Shown in pieces: positions 19,075-56,584 of a stretch of 64,000 bases of DNA. Every line of letters starts with the position of its first letter. The first letter of the stretch is position 1. This DNA comes from a bacterium. GTDB taxonomy: Bacteria; Auribacterota; UBA3054. The stretch is from NCBI GenBank assembly GCA_017557885.1, contig JAFYXV010000002.1:379056-443055 (forward strand). The letters are read 5' to 3'. The notes under the pieces are model-generated. The model ran no database searches. It was not told where the DNA came from and worked only from the letters and a program-made list of their open reading frames with translations. The position numbers were made by a program, and so were the translations under genes.

Positions 19075-19137
19075 TTATGACAAAGCGCAAAATAAAAAAG
19101 ACTTTGCCGGATCAGGAAAGAATAGGAGGATATATAG

Positions 19138-19318
19138 GGGCCCTGCGTGTGCCGTCGGCTTTTTGGTCTAAACCCGTTATTCTAAAAATAAGGCTCGCAA
19201 AGCTTTAAGGCTTCCCGCTCGAAGACGGGCCTGCACAACCACCTTGTCTTGGCCCCGGTACTAAAGCGAATGTCGGTTCAGACGCATTCTGAGCGATAAC
19301 GAACACCGCAGGGTTAAT
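19138..19318 (-). ncRNA. ssrS: 6S RNA candidate
   Basis: The minus-strand RNA contains GAGCGGGAAGCCTTAAAGC, which matches the characteristic GAGAAGCCUUAAAAC stretch of E. coli 6S RNA. The ends pair: CCCTGCG(G)TGT at 19313-19303 with ACACGCAGGG at 19150-19141, one bulge, giving a closed molecule of about 180 nt (E. coli 184). A promoter with -35 TTGGAA and -10 TATTAA ends about 8 bases upstream of the 5' end. 6S RNA sequesters housekeeping RNA polymerase in stationary phase. Its position upstream of rarA and the folate cyclo-ligase gene supports the call. A short ORF on this strand is incidental. Confidence 0.75.
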
Positions 19319-48057: not shown

Positions 48058-49728
48058 TTATTGAACCAGGAACACACGAAAGCCGTTGCTTTCGTCGCCG
48101 TAGCTATTGGGGTTGTCGTAGCCGCGTCTAGCAGAGCGGCACAAGCTGGCCATTGAAGTTGCCCAGCCCCCGCCACGTTGGATACGGCTAGCTCCATTTG
48201 CGCCTTTCGGATCGACTGCATTTCCATCGTACAAATCATACCAATCCAAACACCATTCCGAAACATTCCCGTGCATGTCGTACAATCCCCAGGCATTGGG
48301 AAGATAAAAGCCGACGGTGGTGTGCTCGCTGTATCCGCCTTTTCCATCCTCTTTATTGAAACCGTAGCGGCCGACTTCCTTCATGTTCGCATCGTCGGTT
48401 GTGCTGGTTAGATTCTTTCCGCTGTTCAAAGCTGTGGTCGTTCCCGCCCTGCAGGCGAACTCCCACTGCGCTTCCGTGGGAAGGTCAAAGCTTAAACCGG
48501 TTTTGGCGCGGAGAATGCCAAAGAACGAATCTTCGTCAACTTCGTTGTTAGCAGGCCAGGCAGTGCCTTTATCCGTTCCGCGGAGCAACTTGTATGAAAC
48601 TCTTTCCACCGGCCTGGCATTTCCTTGATGCTTAGAAGGGGTCGAACCAGTGACCAATTCATACTGTTTCTGGGTCGCCTCGAAAACGCCGGCATAGAAC
48701 GGCTTCGTCAACGTCACTTTGTGCTGAGCTTCTCTGTCATATCTTCCCAATTCGCCTTCAGGGCTTCCCATAATATACGTTCCTGCGGGAATCAGGCGCA
48801 TGACCATTTTAGTGGTCTTGTAGTCGTCACTCCAGCCGCCAGCTGGCACGTCGCCAAGATAGCTTACAGGATAACTTGCGGCTTCTGTCCCGCCCGAAAG
48901 GTCTATGACCAGGTAATTCCTTGTGCTGGAGATCTCCGTCGCTTCAACTTTGACTTTGAAATTGTCGACTTTGGTGGAAGAAAAACTTGCATCCGGCGTC
49001 CAGACGGCTTTGTGCGTTCCGGCGCTGCAGAAGGTCTCGTTAAGGTTGGCAACTGACAAATGAAGCTCTCCCCTGTCCTGAAGATTGAATACAGTCGCGC
49101 CGTTGTCCGTAGAGCCGTAGAACTTGACATCATAGATCGTGTTCGCGGCCGGGGTCACAGTATAGGTTATCGCTACGTCTCTGGTGAACGGCAGCATTTG
49201 CTGGAAAGTGACTCCGCTTACAACGTCGGCTTTGGCGCCGATGGCAGAAACAGACACAAGAGCCAAAATTGCAACGAGAGCTTTAACGCGTTTGCGAAGG
49301 AAGAGCGCGCCGGCAATGAATAGCAAAGCCAGAATTGCCGGTTCAGGCAGGATCGTAACAGAGCGTGAAAGCGCTTTAGTTTCATACGAGCTGACGACCG
49401 TTTCCGTTATGGTGTAGGTGTCGTTCTTCGGCAGATCGGAAGCGGTGTAATTCCACGTCGCAGAGCCTTCCACCGCGGTTCCGCTGTTATCGGAAAAGAT
49501 CGTAGCAGTCTTGGTTGAATCCGACTGATCGACCGCGCCGATAGTTAAGGAAGCGGGAGTCCCGTCCGCCAAAGCGCTGCTGTAAAACAAAGAATCGGTC
49601 GGACGCAAAAGAAAAGAAGCTGCTGTGATCTCACTTCCGTCGAAGCTGCCGGCCGCAGACCAGGCTTCGTCACAGAGCGCCGTCACGCTAAGAAGCGCAA
49701 CAATACTAAATAAAATCGCTTTTTTCAT
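48058..49728 (-). CDS. FGE/SUMF1-like protein fused to an N-terminal PEP-CTERM unit
   Basis: 556 residues with an unusual order. Residues 1-19 are a signal peptide; 20-125 a Ser/Thr-rich small domain; 127-147 is LPEPAILALLFIAGALFLRK, a PEP-CTERM-type sorting tail; it runs straight into a second signal-peptide-like segment (RVKALVAILALVSVSAIGAK, about 147-166); then a linker domain, and from about 305 an FGE-sulfatase domain (LIPAGTYIMGSP, DLPTEAQWEFACRAGT, DMHGNVSEWCLDWYD, RIQRGGGWATSMASLCRSAR). Only one of the two cysteines of true formylglycine-generating enzymes is seen near the end, so sulfatase activation is doubtful. It looks like two genes joined in frame; alternatively the tail works as an internal membrane anchor. 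Confidence 0.8.
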   Translation of the reverse strand: MKKAILFSIVALLSVTALCDEAWSAAGSFDGSEITAASFLLRPTDSLFYSSALADGTPASLTIGAVDQSDSTKTATIFSDNSGTAVEGSATWNYTASDLPKNDTYTITETVVSSYETKALSRSVTILPEPAILALLFIAGALFLRKRVKALVAILALVSVSAIGAKADVVSGVTFQQMLPFTRDVAITYTVTPAANTIYDVKFYGSTDNGATVFNLQDRGELHLSVANLNETFCSAGTHKAVWTPDASFSSTKVDNFKVKVEATEISSTRNYLVIDLSGGTEAASYPVSYLGDVPAGGWSDDYKTTKMVMRLIPAGTYIMGSPEGELGRYDREAQHKVTLTKPFYAGVFEATQKQYELVTGSTPSKHQGNARPVERVSYKLLRGTDKGTAWPANNEVDEDSFFGILRAKTGLSFDLPTEAQWEFACRAGTTTALNSGKNLTSTTDDANMKEVGRYGFNKEDGKGGYSEHTTVGFYLPNAWGLYDMHGNVSEWCLDWYDLYDGNAVDPKGANGASRIQRGGGWATSMASLCRSARRGYDNPNSYGDESNGFRVFLVQ

Positions 49729-49914: not shown

Positions 49915-49943
49915 TTGCAAATTAAAAAGATAAGTGCTAACAT
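49915..49943 (+). promoter_or_regulatory. trp operon promoter
   Basis: TTGCAA (49915-49920), 17-base spacer, TAACAT (49938-49943); start expected near 49950, 25 bases before the leader peptide. Confidence 0.65.
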
Positions 49944-49974
49944 TTTCGCCGAACAATCGAGGAAAAGTTTTTTC

Positions 49975-50052
49975 ATGAACACTAAAATGAACTTCTGGTG
50001 GTGGTATGCTTTCTCCGGGCTTTTTCAAGCCGGGACGACTCCTCGTAGCTGA
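49975..50052 (+). CDS. trpL: trp operon leader peptide
   Basis: A 25-codon ORF beginning MNTKMNFWWWYAFSG and ending TTPRS, with three consecutive Trp codons (TGG at 49996, 49999 and 50002). GAGG lies 12 bases before the ATG. Position between the promoter and the terminator ahead of trpE fits a ribosome-mediated attenuation leader: slow decoding of the Trp codons when tryptophan is scarce leaves the downstream antiterminator free to form. Confidence 0.9.
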   Translation: MNTKMNFWWWYAFSGLFQAGTTPRS

Positions 50053-50118
50053 AAGCAAACCTAAAAGAAGTTGAAGCAAGAGGGCCCCGCTTGAAAAAGC
50101 GGGGCCCTCTTCTTTTTT
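50019..50118 (+). promoter_or_regulatory. trp attenuator: antiterminator and terminator
   Basis: Terminator: 50079-50092 pairs perfectly (14 bp) with 50097-50110, GAAA loop, then TCTTTTTT. Antiterminator: GCTTTTTCAAGC (50019-50030) is the exact complement of GCTTGAAAAAGC (50089-50100), which includes the terminator loop and upper stem, so both cannot form. The upstream arm lies 15 bases after the last Trp codon and can also fold locally (CCGG...CCGG, 50015-50034). Confidence 0.88.
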
Positions 50119-50146: not shown

Positions 50147-51634
50147 ATGAAACCAAGTTTAGATGAATTCGCAAAGATGGGAACCGGTAGTGAATTTATT
50201 CCGGTTTACCGGGAGTTTTTGGCCGATCTGGAGACGCCGGTCTCGGTTCTCCGGCGCTTCGCGGAAGAAAAGCACGTTTTCCTATTGGAATCCGTGGAAG
50301 GCGGCGAGCGCTTCGGGCGCTACTCCATCATAGGCGTCAACCCTTACGGGATCTTCACCGTCGAGGACGGACAGGCTTACTTTTCCGCGCCCGGGAAACC
50401 CAAAGAGGCTTTAGGCGAAAAAGGCAAAGGCTTCTTCGCGCTGCGCGAACTGATGAAGGAAGCCAAGGCTCTGACTTATCCCGGCCTTCCTCCCCTTTTC
50501 GGCGGCGCGGTCGGCAGCCTCGACTACGAGATCGTAAGCGAATTCGAAAAAATACCTTTGCGCGAAAAAAAGGAAGACCGGCCGGAAGCGCTCTTCATGC
50601 TGACGAGGGAGATGATCGTTTTCGACACCATGAAGCACACCGTCATGATCGTCGTCTCCGTCAGGAAGAACGATCACAAGGACCATGAGAGCGCCTACAG
50701 ATACGCCGAGGAAAGGATAACCGCGATCAGGGAGCGCATGACAGCGCCTTTGCCCCCTTCCGAACTGGAGCCGGAAATTTCTAGATCCGAGGAGATCAAA
50801 CTAGAAAGCAACATGACGAAAGAGGATTACTGCGAGGCCGTTGAGAGAGCGAAAGCGCTGATCGCGGCAGGCGAAGTGATCCAGGTCGTGCCGGCCCAGA
50901 AATTCTCCGCTCCCGCCCCGAAAAACAGTTTCCAGATCTACCGCGCGCTGCGCCTCATTAATCCTTCCCCTTACCTTTTCTTCATTAAGAACGGCGACCG
51001 CATCCTTATAGGCTCTTCTCCGGAAACGATGGTGAAATTGGAGAACGGCACGGCGGCCATCCGCCCGATCGCCGGCACAAGGCCGAGAGGAATCGATCAG
51101 AAAGAAGACACGCTTCTGGCTGACGAACTATTGAAAGACGAAAAGGAGCGCGCCGAGCACCTTATGCTGGTGGACCTTGGCAGAAACGACCTCGGCCGCC
51201 TCGCCATGCCGGGCAGCGTGCAGGTGAAGAGCTTCATGCAAGTGGAGCGCTATTCCCACGTCATGCACCTCGTCTCCAACATCGAGGCGGAACTGAAGCC
51301 GGAGTACGACGCCTTCGACCTGGTCGCCAGCTCTTTCCCGGCCGGCACTCTCTCGGGCGCGCCCAAGATCCGCGCGATGGAAATAATATCCGAACTTGAG
51401 CCGGAAAGAAGAGGCGCCTACGGCGGCGCGGTCGGCTACTTCAGTTCGACGGGCAACATGGACCTCGCCATCACGATAAGAACGCTGGAAATTAAAGGCG
51501 GAACGCTCTCCTTCGGAGTGGGCGCCGGCGTGGTGGCCGATTCCGTGCCGGAAAACGAATATAAAGAAACGCTGAACAAGGCCGGGGCGATCATGAAAGC
51601 TCTGCGCTTCGTTTCAGAGGGGCTTTCCCTCTAA
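50147..51634 (+). CDS. trpE: Anthranilate synthase component I
   Basis: 495 residues; with TrpG makes anthranilate from chorismate. HVFLLESVEGGERFGRYSIIG carries the LLES segment that binds feedback tryptophan. The chorismate-binding core has NPSPYLFFIKNGDRILIGSSPE, RPIAGTRPRG, LMLVDLGRNDLGRL, SYPAG-type FPAGTLSGAPKIRAMEII and GVGAGVVADSVPENEYKET. The ribosome site before the ATG is weak. First structural gene of trpEGDCFBA. Confidence 0.97.
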   Translation: MKPSLDEFAKMGTGSEFIPVYREFLADLETPVSVLRRFAEEKHVFLLESVEGGERFGRYSIIGVNPYGIFTVEDGQAYFSAPGKPKEALGEKGKGFFALRELMKEAKALTYPGLPPLFGGAVGSLDYEIVSEFEKIPLREKKEDRPEALFMLTREMIVFDTMKHTVMIVVSVRKNDHKDHESAYRYAEERITAIRERMTAPLPPSELEPEISRSEEIKLESNMTKEDYCEAVERAKALIAAGEVIQVVPAQKFSAPAPKNSFQIYRALRLINPSPYLFFIKNGDRILIGSSPETMVKLENGTAAIRPIAGTRPRGIDQKEDTLLADELLKDEKERAEHLMLVDLGRNDLGRLAMPGSVQVKSFMQVERYSHVMHLVSNIEAELKPEYDAFDLVASSFPAGTLSGAPKIRAMEIISELEPERRGAYGGAVGYFSSTGNMDLAITIRTLEIKGGTLSFGVGAGVVADSVPENEYKETLNKAGAIMKALRFVSEGLSL

Positions 51635-51643
51635 GGAGAAATT

Positions 51644-52219
<576 letters not shown>

Positions 52220-52222
52220 ATT

Positions 52223-53236
52223 ATGCTGAACAAAGAAATAAACAAGGCCTTGGCGAAAGAGAATTTCAGCGCCGAGGAAATGGAAGAGATCCTCTCGAAA
52301 TTGGCTTCCAAAACGGAAAGTGATGCCCAAATGGCGGCCTTCCTCATCGCTTTGAGAGCCAAGGGCGAAACGGTCGAAGAGCTGACCGGCGCGGCGCGCT
52401 TTTTGAGGCGCAAAGGGCAGTTCATCGACACGGGCGCCGCGGAAGTCATGGACATCGTGGGCACGGGCGGCGACGAATCGTACTCCTTCAACATTTCGAC
52501 GACCTCCTCTTTCGTGGCGGCCGGCGCCGGCGTCATCGTCGCCAAGCACGGCAACCGCTCCGTCTCATCTAAATGCGGCGCGGCGGACGTGCTGCAGGCC
52601 CTGGGCTTCAATCTTGAGACGGCCCCGGAAAACATGGAGGAAAGCATCCGCGAGAATAGGATCGGCTTCCTTTTCGCCCAGAAGATGCACCCGATCTTGG
52701 GCAATGTGGCGCCCTTGAGAAAGGCCCTGGGCGTCAGAACGATCTTCAACATGATAGGCCCTCTTACGAACCCGGCCGGCGCGACCACGCAGCTGACGGG
52801 CGTTTACAACGGCGCCATTACGGAATTGGTGGCCGGAGCGCTTAAAGAGCTCGGCGTGAAACGCGCCATGGTCGTGCATAGTGAGGACGGCATGGACGAG
52901 ATCAGCTGCAACGTTCCGACGCGCGTCTCCGAACTGAAGGACGGACTCGTCACTACCTATGACCTCGAGCCTTCCTTGTATCTCGATGGTTTCGAGGGCG
53001 GAGAAATAGGCGGCGGCACTCCGGAGGAAAACGCTAAGATCCTGCTTGACGTCCTGGAAGGCAGAGACCGCGGCGCCAACAGAGCCGTGACGCTCATCAA
53101 TTCCGGCGCGGCCATCTACATTTACGGCCTCGCCAAAGATATTCAAGAAGGCGTCAAAATGGCGGAAGAATCCATAGACAAAGGCTTGGCCAGACAAAAA
53201 CTCGACGAACTTATTACCGCCAGCAAAAATGCGTGA
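52223..53236 (+). CDS. trpD: Anthranilate phosphoribosyltransferase
   Basis: 337 residues; joins anthranilate to PRPP. MDIVGTGGDESYSFNIST is the PRPP-binding loop; KHGNRSVSSKCGAADVLQALG, FLFAQKMHP, GVRTIFNMIGPLTNPAG and VHSEDGMDEIS are family blocks. Begins three bases after trpG and overlaps trpC by eight bases. Confidence 0.97.
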   Translation: MLNKEINKALAKENFSAEEMEEILSKLASKTESDAQMAAFLIALRAKGETVEELTGAARFLRRKGQFIDTGAAEVMDIVGTGGDESYSFNISTTSSFVAAGAGVIVAKHGNRSVSSKCGAADVLQALGFNLETAPENMEESIRENRIGFLFAQKMHPILGNVAPLRKALGVRTIFNMIGPLTNPAGATTQLTGVYNGAITELVAGALKELGVKRAMVVHSEDGMDEISCNVPTRVSELKDGLVTTYDLEPSLYLDGFEGGEIGGGTPEENAKILLDVLEGRDRGANRAVTLINSGAAIYIYGLAKDIQEGVKMAEESIDKGLARQKLDELITASKNA

Positions 53237-54011
53237 CATTCTTTTGGAAATAGCCGAAAAGTCGGCCGCCGACCTCAAGGCGAAAAAGGCAGAGGTTCCC
53301 GAAGCGGAATTGATAAAAGCAATTGAGAAGCGGGACAAATTGCCGCTTTCGCTTTACGCTGCTCTGAAAAGAGAGGGCGTCTCCGTCATCGCGGAAATAA
53401 AGAAAGCCTCACCCAGCAAAGGAATAATCAAAGCCGATCTCGATCCAGTTGGCTTAGCGAAAACCTACTCTGCCAACGGCGCGGCGGCCATCTCCGTCCT
53501 GACGGAGGAAAACTATTTCCTCGGCTCCATGGACATTCTGAAAACGGTCCGCAGGGAAACTTCTCTTCCCGTTCTGCGGAAGGATTTCATCTTCGACCGC
53601 TATCAGATCCTGGAGGCCGCGGCGGCCGGCGCCGACGCCGTTCTGCTCATCGCCTCGCTTTTTCATGACGACGCGCTCCTTAAAGAGCTCTTTAAGTTCA
53701 CGCAGGAACTGGGCATGGAAGCGCTTTGCGAAGCGCACGACAAAATGGAGGCGCAGCGCCTCGTTGACCTCGGCGCGAAAATAATCGGCGTGAATTGCCG
53801 CGACCTCAGAACTTTCCAGGTCTTCCCGGAAAAGTCGGAAGCGGTCATAGAAACGCTGCCAAAAGAAGTCGCGAAAGTGGCGGAAAGCGGCTTGAAAACG
53901 CCAAACGATCTTAAACTTTACCCTGCCGCCGACGCTTTTTTGATCGGCGAAACTTTAGTCAGGTCAAATGATCCCGGCGCAACTTTGAGAGGTTTCGCTA
54001 ATGGCCGCTAA
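53229..54011 (+). CDS. trpC: Indole-3-glycerol-phosphate synthase
   Basis: 260 residues, (beta/alpha)8 barrel. VIAEIKKASPSKGII, VLTEENYFLGSMDIL, LPVLRKDFIFDRYQI, GVNCRDLRTF (usually NNRDL) and KVAESGLKTPND carry the catalytic Lys and Glu residues. Separate from TrpF, unlike the fused enzyme of enterobacteria. Overlaps trpF by eleven bases. Confidence 0.97.
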   Translation: MRDILLEIAEKSAADLKAKKAEVPEAELIKAIEKRDKLPLSLYAALKREGVSVIAEIKKASPSKGIIKADLDPVGLAKTYSANGAAAISVLTEENYFLGSMDILKTVRRETSLPVLRKDFIFDRYQILEAAAAGADAVLLIASLFHDDALLKELFKFTQELGMEALCEAHDKMEAQRLVDLGAKIIGVNCRDLRTFQVFPEKSEAVIETLPKEVAKVAESGLKTPNDLKLYPAADAFLIGETLVRSNDPGATLRGFANGR

Positions 54012-54600
54012 ATTCGTAAAGATCTGCGGACTCACCAACTATGCCGACGCGCGCTTCGCCTTCGAAGCGGGCGCGGATTACCTCGGTTTCATCCTGATCC
54101 CGGGGTCAATGCGCGCCATAGACAGGGAAGAGTTCGAAAAGATCGATTTCGGAAAAAAAGTCGGCGTATTCCAAAACGCCCCCCTAGACTACGTCCTCTC
54201 CTTTAAACTCGACACGATCCAGCTGCACGGAACAGAGAGTGAGGAATACGTTGACAAACTGCGCGCAAGAACTAATTGCGAGATCTGGAAAGCGCTGCCA
54301 ATCGTGGACGCCGCGAGCCTGGAGTTCGCAAAGTCGCGCTACAAGGGCCTCGCCATTTTAGCCGACGGCGAGAAGGGCGGCCGCCATTGCGATCGGGTCT
54401 TGGCGCGCGAACTGAGCGTAATGAGGCCTACGATCCTGGCCGGGCAATTGACGCCCGAAAACGTGGGAGAGGCGATCAATTTGGTCGATCCCATCGGCGT
54501 GGACGCGGCCAGCGGCGTGGAAACCGAAAACGATCCCAGAAAAAAAGACGAACATAAAATATTAGCTTTCATAAACGAAGTAAGGAAACACTTATGTTAA
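54001..54600 (+). CDS. trpF: Phosphoribosylanthranilate isomerase
   Basis: 199 residues; carries out the Amadori rearrangement before Trp[21 protein letters not shown] holds the catalytic Cys; [19 protein letters not shown] and [19 protein letters not shown] (catalytic Asp and phosphate site) match the family. Overlaps trpB by seven bases. Confidence 0.96.
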
Positions 54601-55781
54601 AAACTCATTTCGGCCCCTACGGCGGACAATACGTGGCGGAAACGCTGATGCCCGCCCTGCATGAACTGGAACAGGCTTACAGAGAAGCGAAATCTGATCC
54701 CGCTTTCAAATCAGAGATGGCCAATCTTCTGCGCGATTACGTGGGACGCACTTCCCCTCTCTATTTCGCCAAGCGTTTGACGGAAAAAGTTGGCGGCGCG
54801 AAGATCTATCTCAAAAGGGAAGACCTGAACCATACCGGCGCGCACAAGATAAACAACACCATCGGCCAGGCCCTCTTAGCAAAGCGCATGGGCAAGAAGC
54901 GCCTGATCGCCGAAACGGGCGCCGGCATGCACGGCGTCGCGACGGCGACTGTGGCGGCGCTTTTGGGCTTCGAGTGCGAAGTCTTCATGGGCGAACTTGA
55001 CATCAGGCGCCAGGCCCCGAACGTCCAGCGTATGCACGCCCTGGGCGCCAAGGTTAGAAGCGTCGCTTCCGGAACGGGAACTTTGAAGGACGCTATGAAC
55101 GAAGCGCTGCGCGACTGGGTCGCCACTTATGAGGACACTTTCTACGTCATCGGCACGGTGGCCGGCCCGCACCCCTACCCCGCGATGGTAAGGGATTTCC
55201 AGTCGGTCATAGGCAAGGAAGCCAGACGCCAGTTCAAAAAGCTCTCCGGCAAATTGCCAGACCAGGTGATCGCCTGCGTGGGCGGCGGCAGCAACGCCAT
55301 GGGCATTTTCCACGCTTTCCTCCGTGACAAGGACGTCGCTCTTTTCGGCGTGGAAGCCGGAGGCAAAGGCCTGAAGACCAAAGCGCACGCCGCCAGCATC
55401 AATGGCGGCGAAGTGGGCGTTCTGCACGGCTGCAAGACCTACCTTCTGCAGACTGATGACGGTCAGATCCTGGACGCCTATTCTGTTTCAGCGGGCTTGG
55501 ATTATCCCGGCGTCGGTCCGGAGCACTCCTACCTTGGCGACATCGGGCGCGTCACTTACACCGCCATCAATGACAAGGAAGCGCTTTCCGCTTTCCACGC
55601 CCTTTGCGAATACGAGGGCATTATCCCGGCCCTTGAGAGCGCGCACGCCCTGGCGCAGGCCATTAAAAACGCCAAAAAGCTTGGCAAGGACAAAAACATC
55701 ATCGTCTGCCTTTCCGGGCGCGGCGACAAAGACATGGACAACGTTATCAATTACGAAGCGAAAATGCAGGAGAAGAAATAA
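54594..55781 (+). CDS. trpB: Tryptophan synthase beta chain
   Basis: 395 residues. [19 protein letters not shown], the PLP lysine in [56 protein letters not shown] and [11 protein letters not shown] are the classic TrpB1 blocks. It joins indole, passed from TrpA, to serine. One-base overlap with trpA. Confidence 0.98.
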
Positions 55782-56584
55782 TGAGCGGCAAACTGAGAAA
55801 GATTTTTGCGGACGGAAAAAAGAAACTTGTGGGCTTCGCCTCCGCAGGCTGCCCAACCGTAGGAGAAAGCCTTGAATTCATGGACGCGATGTTAAAGGGC
55901 GGCGTGGATATTCTCGAAATAGGCGTGCCCTTTTCCGACCCGATGGCGGACGGCCCGACGATCCAGGCCTCCTCGCAGAAAGCGCTCGCAAGCGGCACGA
56001 CCGTGAGCGACGTCCTTAAGATCTGCAAAAAATTGAGCGATAAATATCCCGAAAAAGGCTTCGTCTTATTCAGCTACTACAACCTGATCTTTCATATGGG
56101 GCCAGATAAATTCGCCCGCGCCGCCAAAGCCTCCGGCGCCGACGGGATCTTGGTAGTGGACGTCCCCTTGGAGGAAAGGAAAGAAATAAAACCCTTCTTC
56201 GACAAGTACGGCCTCGACCTTATCCCGCTCGTTTCACCCGCCACGCCCAAAGCGAGGGCCAAAGAGATATTAAAAGGCATAGGCGGCTTCGTCTATTACA
56301 TAATCTTTAAGGGCGTGACCGGAACGAGAACGGAATTACCGAAAGACCTTAAAGCCAAAGTCGCGGAACTGAAGAAAACAGGCAGCCTTCCCGTGGCGGC
56401 CGGTTTCGGCGTAAGCGACGCCGCCATGGCGAAAAAAGTCGCAGCGATCTCTGACGGAGTCGTCATTGGCTCAGCCTTCGTGAAGATCCAGCTGGACGAA
56501 ACGCTCTCTATGACCGAAAAGCGCGCCAAAGCGCTTGCTTTCGCCAAGGCGTGCAAAGAGAGCCTGTCCTTTGCGAAGCCTTAG
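55781..56584 (+). CDS. trpA: Tryptophan synthase alpha chain
   Basis: 267 residues. GFASAGCPTVGESLEF, VDILEIGVPFSDPMADGPTI (catalytic Glu and Asp), SPATPKARAKEI and VAAGFGVSDAAMAKKV match TrpA, which splits indole-glycerol phosphate. Last trp gene. Its stop overlaps the stop of the convergent helicase gene by four bases, so no terminator lies between them. Confidence 0.97.
   Translation: MSGKLRKIFADGKKKLVGFASAGCPTVGESLEFMDAMLKGGVDILEIGVPFSDPMADGPTIQASSQKALASGTTVSDVLKICKKLSDKYPEKGFVLFSYYNLIFHMGPDKFARAAKASGADGILVVDVPLEERKEIKPFFDKYGLDLIPLVSPATPKARAKEILKGIGGFVYYIIFKGVTGTRTELPKDLKAKVAELKKTGSLPVAAGFGVSDAAMAKKVAAISDGVVIGSAFVKIQLDETLSMTEKRAKALAFAKACKESLSFAKP

Follow-up and report, generated by a model that had tools for sequence, protein, structure and literature searches.

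A probable leader-peptide attenuator, apparently acquired with its trp operon from Lentisphaeria

For a long time leader-peptide attenuation was known chiefly from Proteobacteria and Actinobacteria; according to Naville and Gautheret (2010), none had been shown outside Proteobacteria and Actinobacteria before their own case in bacilli, the histidine leader peptides of hisS/hisZ (PMC2965389). The question raised here is what to make of a region directly upstream of a complete trpEGDCFBA operon, within a 64,000-nucleotide stretch of DNA (the window) from a member of the Auribacterota, in which a short reading frame with three consecutive Trp codons is followed by competing hairpins. The earlier note had read it as a trp attenuator governed by a leader peptide, and that is still the best reading, supported by the parts of the element, their conservation and folding around a ribosome footprint. 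Judged from its sequence, this is very probably a functioning trp attenuator of an ordinary type, in a new lineage and horizontally acquired, and we are confident that it is a ribosome-mediated transcription attenuator that arrived along with the operon from the Lentisphaeria.

Between a divergent gene (48058-49728, - strand) and the start of trpE at 50147 lie, in order, a possible promoter, the motif GAGGA, the leader ORF and an intrinsic terminator, the last of these sitting between the leader ORF and the first structural gene (Table 1). The possible promoter matches 8 of 12 consensus bases, which places it under the cut-off of the promoter scan, and its stretch is conserved in genus mates, two of which have TAATAT. 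The leader ORF, presumably translated, is short and carries a run of codons for the very amino acid that the operon produces; the three Trp codons described in the earlier note are indeed in place before trpE. Three bases past the last of them begins the 5' strand of the protector, a fold of dG -19.3 when 50005-50060 is folded in isolation. The antiterminator core, described earlier as an exact 12-bp match, consists of 12 perfect pairs; by itself it would reach only the top of the terminator, and when 50019-50100 is folded alone, core and extensions together take in the terminator's entire 5' arm (dG -30.9, z -4.2). The terminator stem is as perfect as had been claimed and measures 15 bp, rather than the 14 bp given at the time (dG -32.2, z -7.2); the terminator scan found it alone on the + strand between leader and trpE, and the element is thus not of the twin-terminator form discussed below. 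As the earlier note said, the stop codon (50050-50052) is located past the antiterminator arm, a geometry unlike that of E. coli trpL and found likewise in several Lentisphaeria attenuators; unlike E. coli trpL, too, the arm pairs across the terminator apex plus its 5' arm.

Table 1. Features of the trp leader and operon in the window, with the related twin-terminator loci
Feature	Position	Strand	Basis or remark
Possible promoter TTGCAA-17-TAACAT, extended -10 (TGC before TAACAT)	49915..49943	+	inference from sequence
Possible Shine-Dalgarno GAGGA of leader ORF	49959..49963	+	conserved in genus
Leader ORF MNTKMNFWWWYAFSGLFQAGTTPRS*, 25 aa	49975..50052	+	kept in 8/8 genus members
Three consecutive Trp codons (control codons)	49996..50004	+	invariant in genus
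Protector (1:2): outer helix 50007-50013 x 50051-50057, inner hairpins 50015-50034 and 50035-50046	50007..50057	+	folding, pairing probability, double change
Antiterminator arm (region 2), partner 50089-50100	50019..50030	+	folding, shuffles, genus alignment
Antiterminator extension: 50032-50034 x 50085-50087 and 50040-50044 x 50080-50084	50032..50044	+	folding; all pairs kept in genus
Intrinsic terminator hairpin, 15 bp, 50078-50092 x 50097-50111, loop GAAA 50093-50096	50078..50111	+	folding, terminator scan, genus alignment
Terminator T-run CTTTTTT	50112..50118	+	sequence, terminator scan
trpE	50147..51634	+	PF04715, 3e-29
trpG-like amidotransferase	51644..52219	+	ORF; named from sequence and operon position
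trpD-like	52223..53236	+	ORF; named from sequence and operon position
trpC-like	53229..54011	+	ORF; named from sequence and operon position
trpF-like	54001..54600	+	ORF; named from sequence and operon position
trpB	54594..55781	+	ORF; homologues found
trpA-like	55781..56584	+	ORF; named from sequence and operon position
Twin-terminator loci, one W-rich leader, each terminator matched by its own half of region 2	L125-L143, L149-L168, L197-L210		trpE upstreams, Lentisphaeria

As a separate observation, the divergent ORF bears a PEP-CTERM-like stretch (PEPAILALLFIAGALFLRKR) about halfway along; after it come an apparent second signal peptide and a SUMF1-like part. The ORF may be two fused genes or reflect a frame problem.

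Runs of Trp codons are common in this DNA, with 8 copies of TGGTGGTGG in the window against 0.27 expected and 102 in the genome, so the evidence rests on the arrangement and not on the Trp run. The 12-bp run was reached by none of 2000 shuffles of the leader and its duplex energy by 3 of 2000, while the 176-base leader folds with z = -5.1. The search of related genomes suggested in the earlier note found leader, WWW and stems retained in all seven genus mates compared (eight species including the host); in the eight-species alignment the antiterminator pairs in 208 of 208 cells and the terminator in 120 of 120, and one loop change turns into a U-G pair within the antiterminator. The covariation check suggested alongside it yielded a single double change, at the closing pair of the protector (50007-50057), where U-A has become C-G in four species in a compensatory manner; the competing stems barely vary within the genus, which makes their covariation uninformative at that range. 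Relatives lacking the Trp run or compensatory changes, the outcome that was to count against attenuation, are not what the seven genus mates present. A run of six codons in arm 2 is free of change at all positions, a state reached by 7 of 490 six-codon windows of trpE in the same species. The closest relative outside the genus, the Lentisphaeria MAG L039, has an antiterminator no better than shuffles (360 of 2000), and it was dropped as support for covariation.

How the parts might act together was explored by stepwise folding of the nascent RNA around a ribosome footprint extending 12 bases past the first base of the A-site codon. With RNA visible to 50095, the probability of the antiterminator is 0.61 with Trp codon 1 in the A site, 0.64 with codon 2 and 0.97 with codon 3; it is 0.01 with the ribosome at codon 15, 0.00 at the stop and 0.00 with no ribosome at all, when the protector has a probability of 1.00. 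The control codons are, by this measure, so placed that a stalled ribosome frees the antiterminator arm. Once RNA is visible to 50100 the antiterminator wins even without a ribosome (0.98), and with the full terminator visible the terminator beats it at equilibrium in all ribosome states, so that the outcome has to be decided kinetically. Under a shortage of charged tRNA-Trp, the ribosome would stall at the three Trp codons and cover the protector's 5' strand (50007-50013), and the freed arm 2 (50019-50044) could pair with the terminator's 5' arm and apex (50080-50100) as these emerge, allowing the polymerase to enter trpE. With ample Trp, the ribosome would pass arm 2 and reach the stop at 50050, the terminator (50078-50111) would fold first, and transcription would be expected to stop near 50113-50118. 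As the stop lies beyond arm 2, the ribosome would clear that arm before its release, and the arm could then fold on itself (50018-50022 x 50027-50031).

The same arrangement, in other sequences, stands before trpE in most Lentisphaeria of the clade from which the operon appears to derive. Of 106 Lentisphaeria trpE upstreams that were 300 bases or longer, 79 contain a W-rich leader ORF, in every case with a terminator further downstream; the controls gave such ORFs in 7.4% of shuffled sequences and in 4 of 106 reverse complements. The upstreams without a W-rich ORF belong largely to more distant TrpE types.

That the operon is foreign to its host emerges from a comparison of gene histories, for which trees of RpoB, TrpE and TrpB were built from motif-checked reading frames. 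Host TrpE is 91-97% identical within the genus, 76% to L039 and 56-61% to other Lentisphaeria, versus 46-48% to mates of its own order; for host RpoB the identity is 62-65% to those order mates that have a full-length copy, versus 49-53% to Lentisphaeria. In the RpoB tree the host groups with its order mates, while in the TrpE tree the operon is nested within the Lentisphaeria and in the TrpB tree it groups with Lentisphaeria rows, each time with L039 as sister. Forcing host and order mates together was rejected for both proteins (p-AU 4.6e-91 for TrpE, 1.7e-36 for TrpB). No W-leader was found upstream of trpE in the five order mates examined, and in three mates of the host's order (G008, G011 and G014) trpE and trpB are on separate contigs. 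Because RpoB places the host with order mates that have no attenuator, and TrpE and TrpB place the operon with Lentisphaeria, operon and attenuator would have been acquired together, and their joint transfer is the simplest account of these sequences. The suggestion in the earlier note of an example from the PVC group thus holds for the source of the operon, the Lentisphaeria, and the host's own phylogenetic neighbours are without the element. The window's contig is 542 kb long and the operon is present in all seven genus mates, and this speaks against misbinning of the host; the contig of L039 is just 13 kb. One genus mate also has a second TrpB-like gene (G002:C69:10271-11413, L291; 53% identity), which groups with second TrpB copies of Lentisphaeria.

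Could the hairpin be a mere constitutive terminator insulating trp from upstream transcription, with the small ORF a chance frame? In keeping with such a reading, the terminator is very strong and the genome has many copies of TGGTGGTGG; however, the upstream gene is divergent and supplies no transcript in need of insulation, a terminator that always acts, placed between the likely promoter and trpE, would shut the operon off, and the ORF, its Trp codons and the 12-bp complement of the terminator are conserved together. With W-rich ORFs also so much more frequent before Lentisphaeria trpE genes than in shuffles, we regard this explanation as highly improbable. Protein- or tRNA-binding leaders control trp in Firmicutes, and a leader of that type might sense Trp here by another mechanism, making the ORF incidental. 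This seems extremely improbable, given that the Trp codons are positioned as the ribosome footprint would have them and that no Rfam leader family matched the window at gathering threshold, where the sole Rfam match was 6S RNA (RF00013, 64.2 bits, 19136-19317, - strand); a scan at lax thresholds gave Phe_leader as the best leader family, with 20.3 bits against a gathering threshold of 55, and the T-box had no match in the window at either setting.

A further alternative accepts the attenuator and disputes its origin: the operon would have been inherited vertically, and in the order mates the attenuator would have been lost and the trp genes replaced. Such a history gains what standing it has from the breadth of the comparison, which covers five order mates with full-length TrpE. 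Against it, TrpE and TrpB each join the Lentisphaeria with L039 as sister, at the p-AU values given above, and RpoB does not, and the different contigs of trpE and trpB in three order mates likewise tell against it; we consider vertical descent very unlikely and retain the reading of an attenuator transferred with its operon.

Within the Lentisphaeria there is a second design. In about 30 genomes, a peptide ending in W-x-W-x or similar is followed by the stop, region 2 and then a tandem pair of terminators (T1 and T2). A single terminator, behind a longer peptide that extends over region 2, is the pattern in other Lentisphaeria and resembles the window's element. Permutations over 16 dereplicated representatives, with relatedness not fully corrected for, indicated a better fit of region 2's first 8 bases to their own T1 than to the T1 of other species (p 0.0024), with no such fit to T2 (p 0.93), and of bases 8-20 to their own T2 (p < 1e-4), with none to T1 (p 0.999). 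In stepwise folding, region 2 is paired to T1 with P of at least 0.94 when the RNA extends to mid-T1 (16 of 16), and is paired to T2, with the T1 hairpin closed, when it extends to mid-T2 (16 of 16); on a stricter five-base measure of this hand-over all 16 pass, against 10% with region 2 shuffled. We lean towards a model in which one stalled ribosome would free a segment whose first half blocks T1 and whose second half then blocks T2, a double lock under one leader peptide, and in which the window's single-terminator form would descend from this group and have spread by operon transfer. The twin-terminator form appears, on computational grounds, to be an undescribed variant and more novel than the window's element. 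Separately, at seven loci (L128, L129, L144, L147, L175, L202 and L212) a single trpE is preceded by two W-rich leader ORFs in succession, in most cases with a terminator between them or after them; these are apparently duplicated attenuators.

Set beside known systems, the window's element has in common with the trp attenuators of Proteobacteria (E. coli trpL) and Actinobacteria (Corynebacterium, Streptomyces; PMC1262725) a leader ORF in which Trp codons stand in twos or threes, competing antiterminator and terminator folds, a T-run and a site before the trp operon. It differs from them in its lineage, with no sequence or Rfam relation detected, in the stop codon past the antiterminator arm and in the pairing of that arm across the terminator apex as well as its 5' arm. 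With the twin-terminator loci (L125-L210), from the clade that is the operon's source, it shares a W-rich leader, protector, antiterminator and terminator before trpE; their W-x-W peptides end just after the Trp codons and their two terminators are served by the two halves of one region 2, whereas the window has WWW, a long tail and one terminator. More than one attenuation step per leader is also a feature of Salmonella mgtCBR, but there two ORFs answer two different signals, in contrast to the one ORF and one signal of the Lentisphaeria (PMC3641672). The hisS/hisZ leaders of bacilli are, like this element, leader-peptide attenuators beyond Proteobacteria and Actinobacteria, with another amino acid, phylum and set of genes (PMC2965389). 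A literature search, weak because subscription journals were mostly outside its coverage, returned no paper on Lentisphaerae together with the trp operon or leader peptides. The whole class Lentisphaeria appears to use leader-peptide attenuation for trp, and offers a clear clade for studying how attenuator geometry evolves; that one copy would have moved with its operon to another lineage implies that the regulator travels as a working unit, and the twin-terminator form provides a testable design for a double-locked switch under one signal.

A leader MKTGAENTVRFFAWGWSRH* and a terminator also stand before a trpE that is not of the Lentisphaeria type in a different family of the host's phylum (L029, genome G041), and a similar hairpin region lies upstream of trpE at L298 (G036); this may be an independent trp attenuator.
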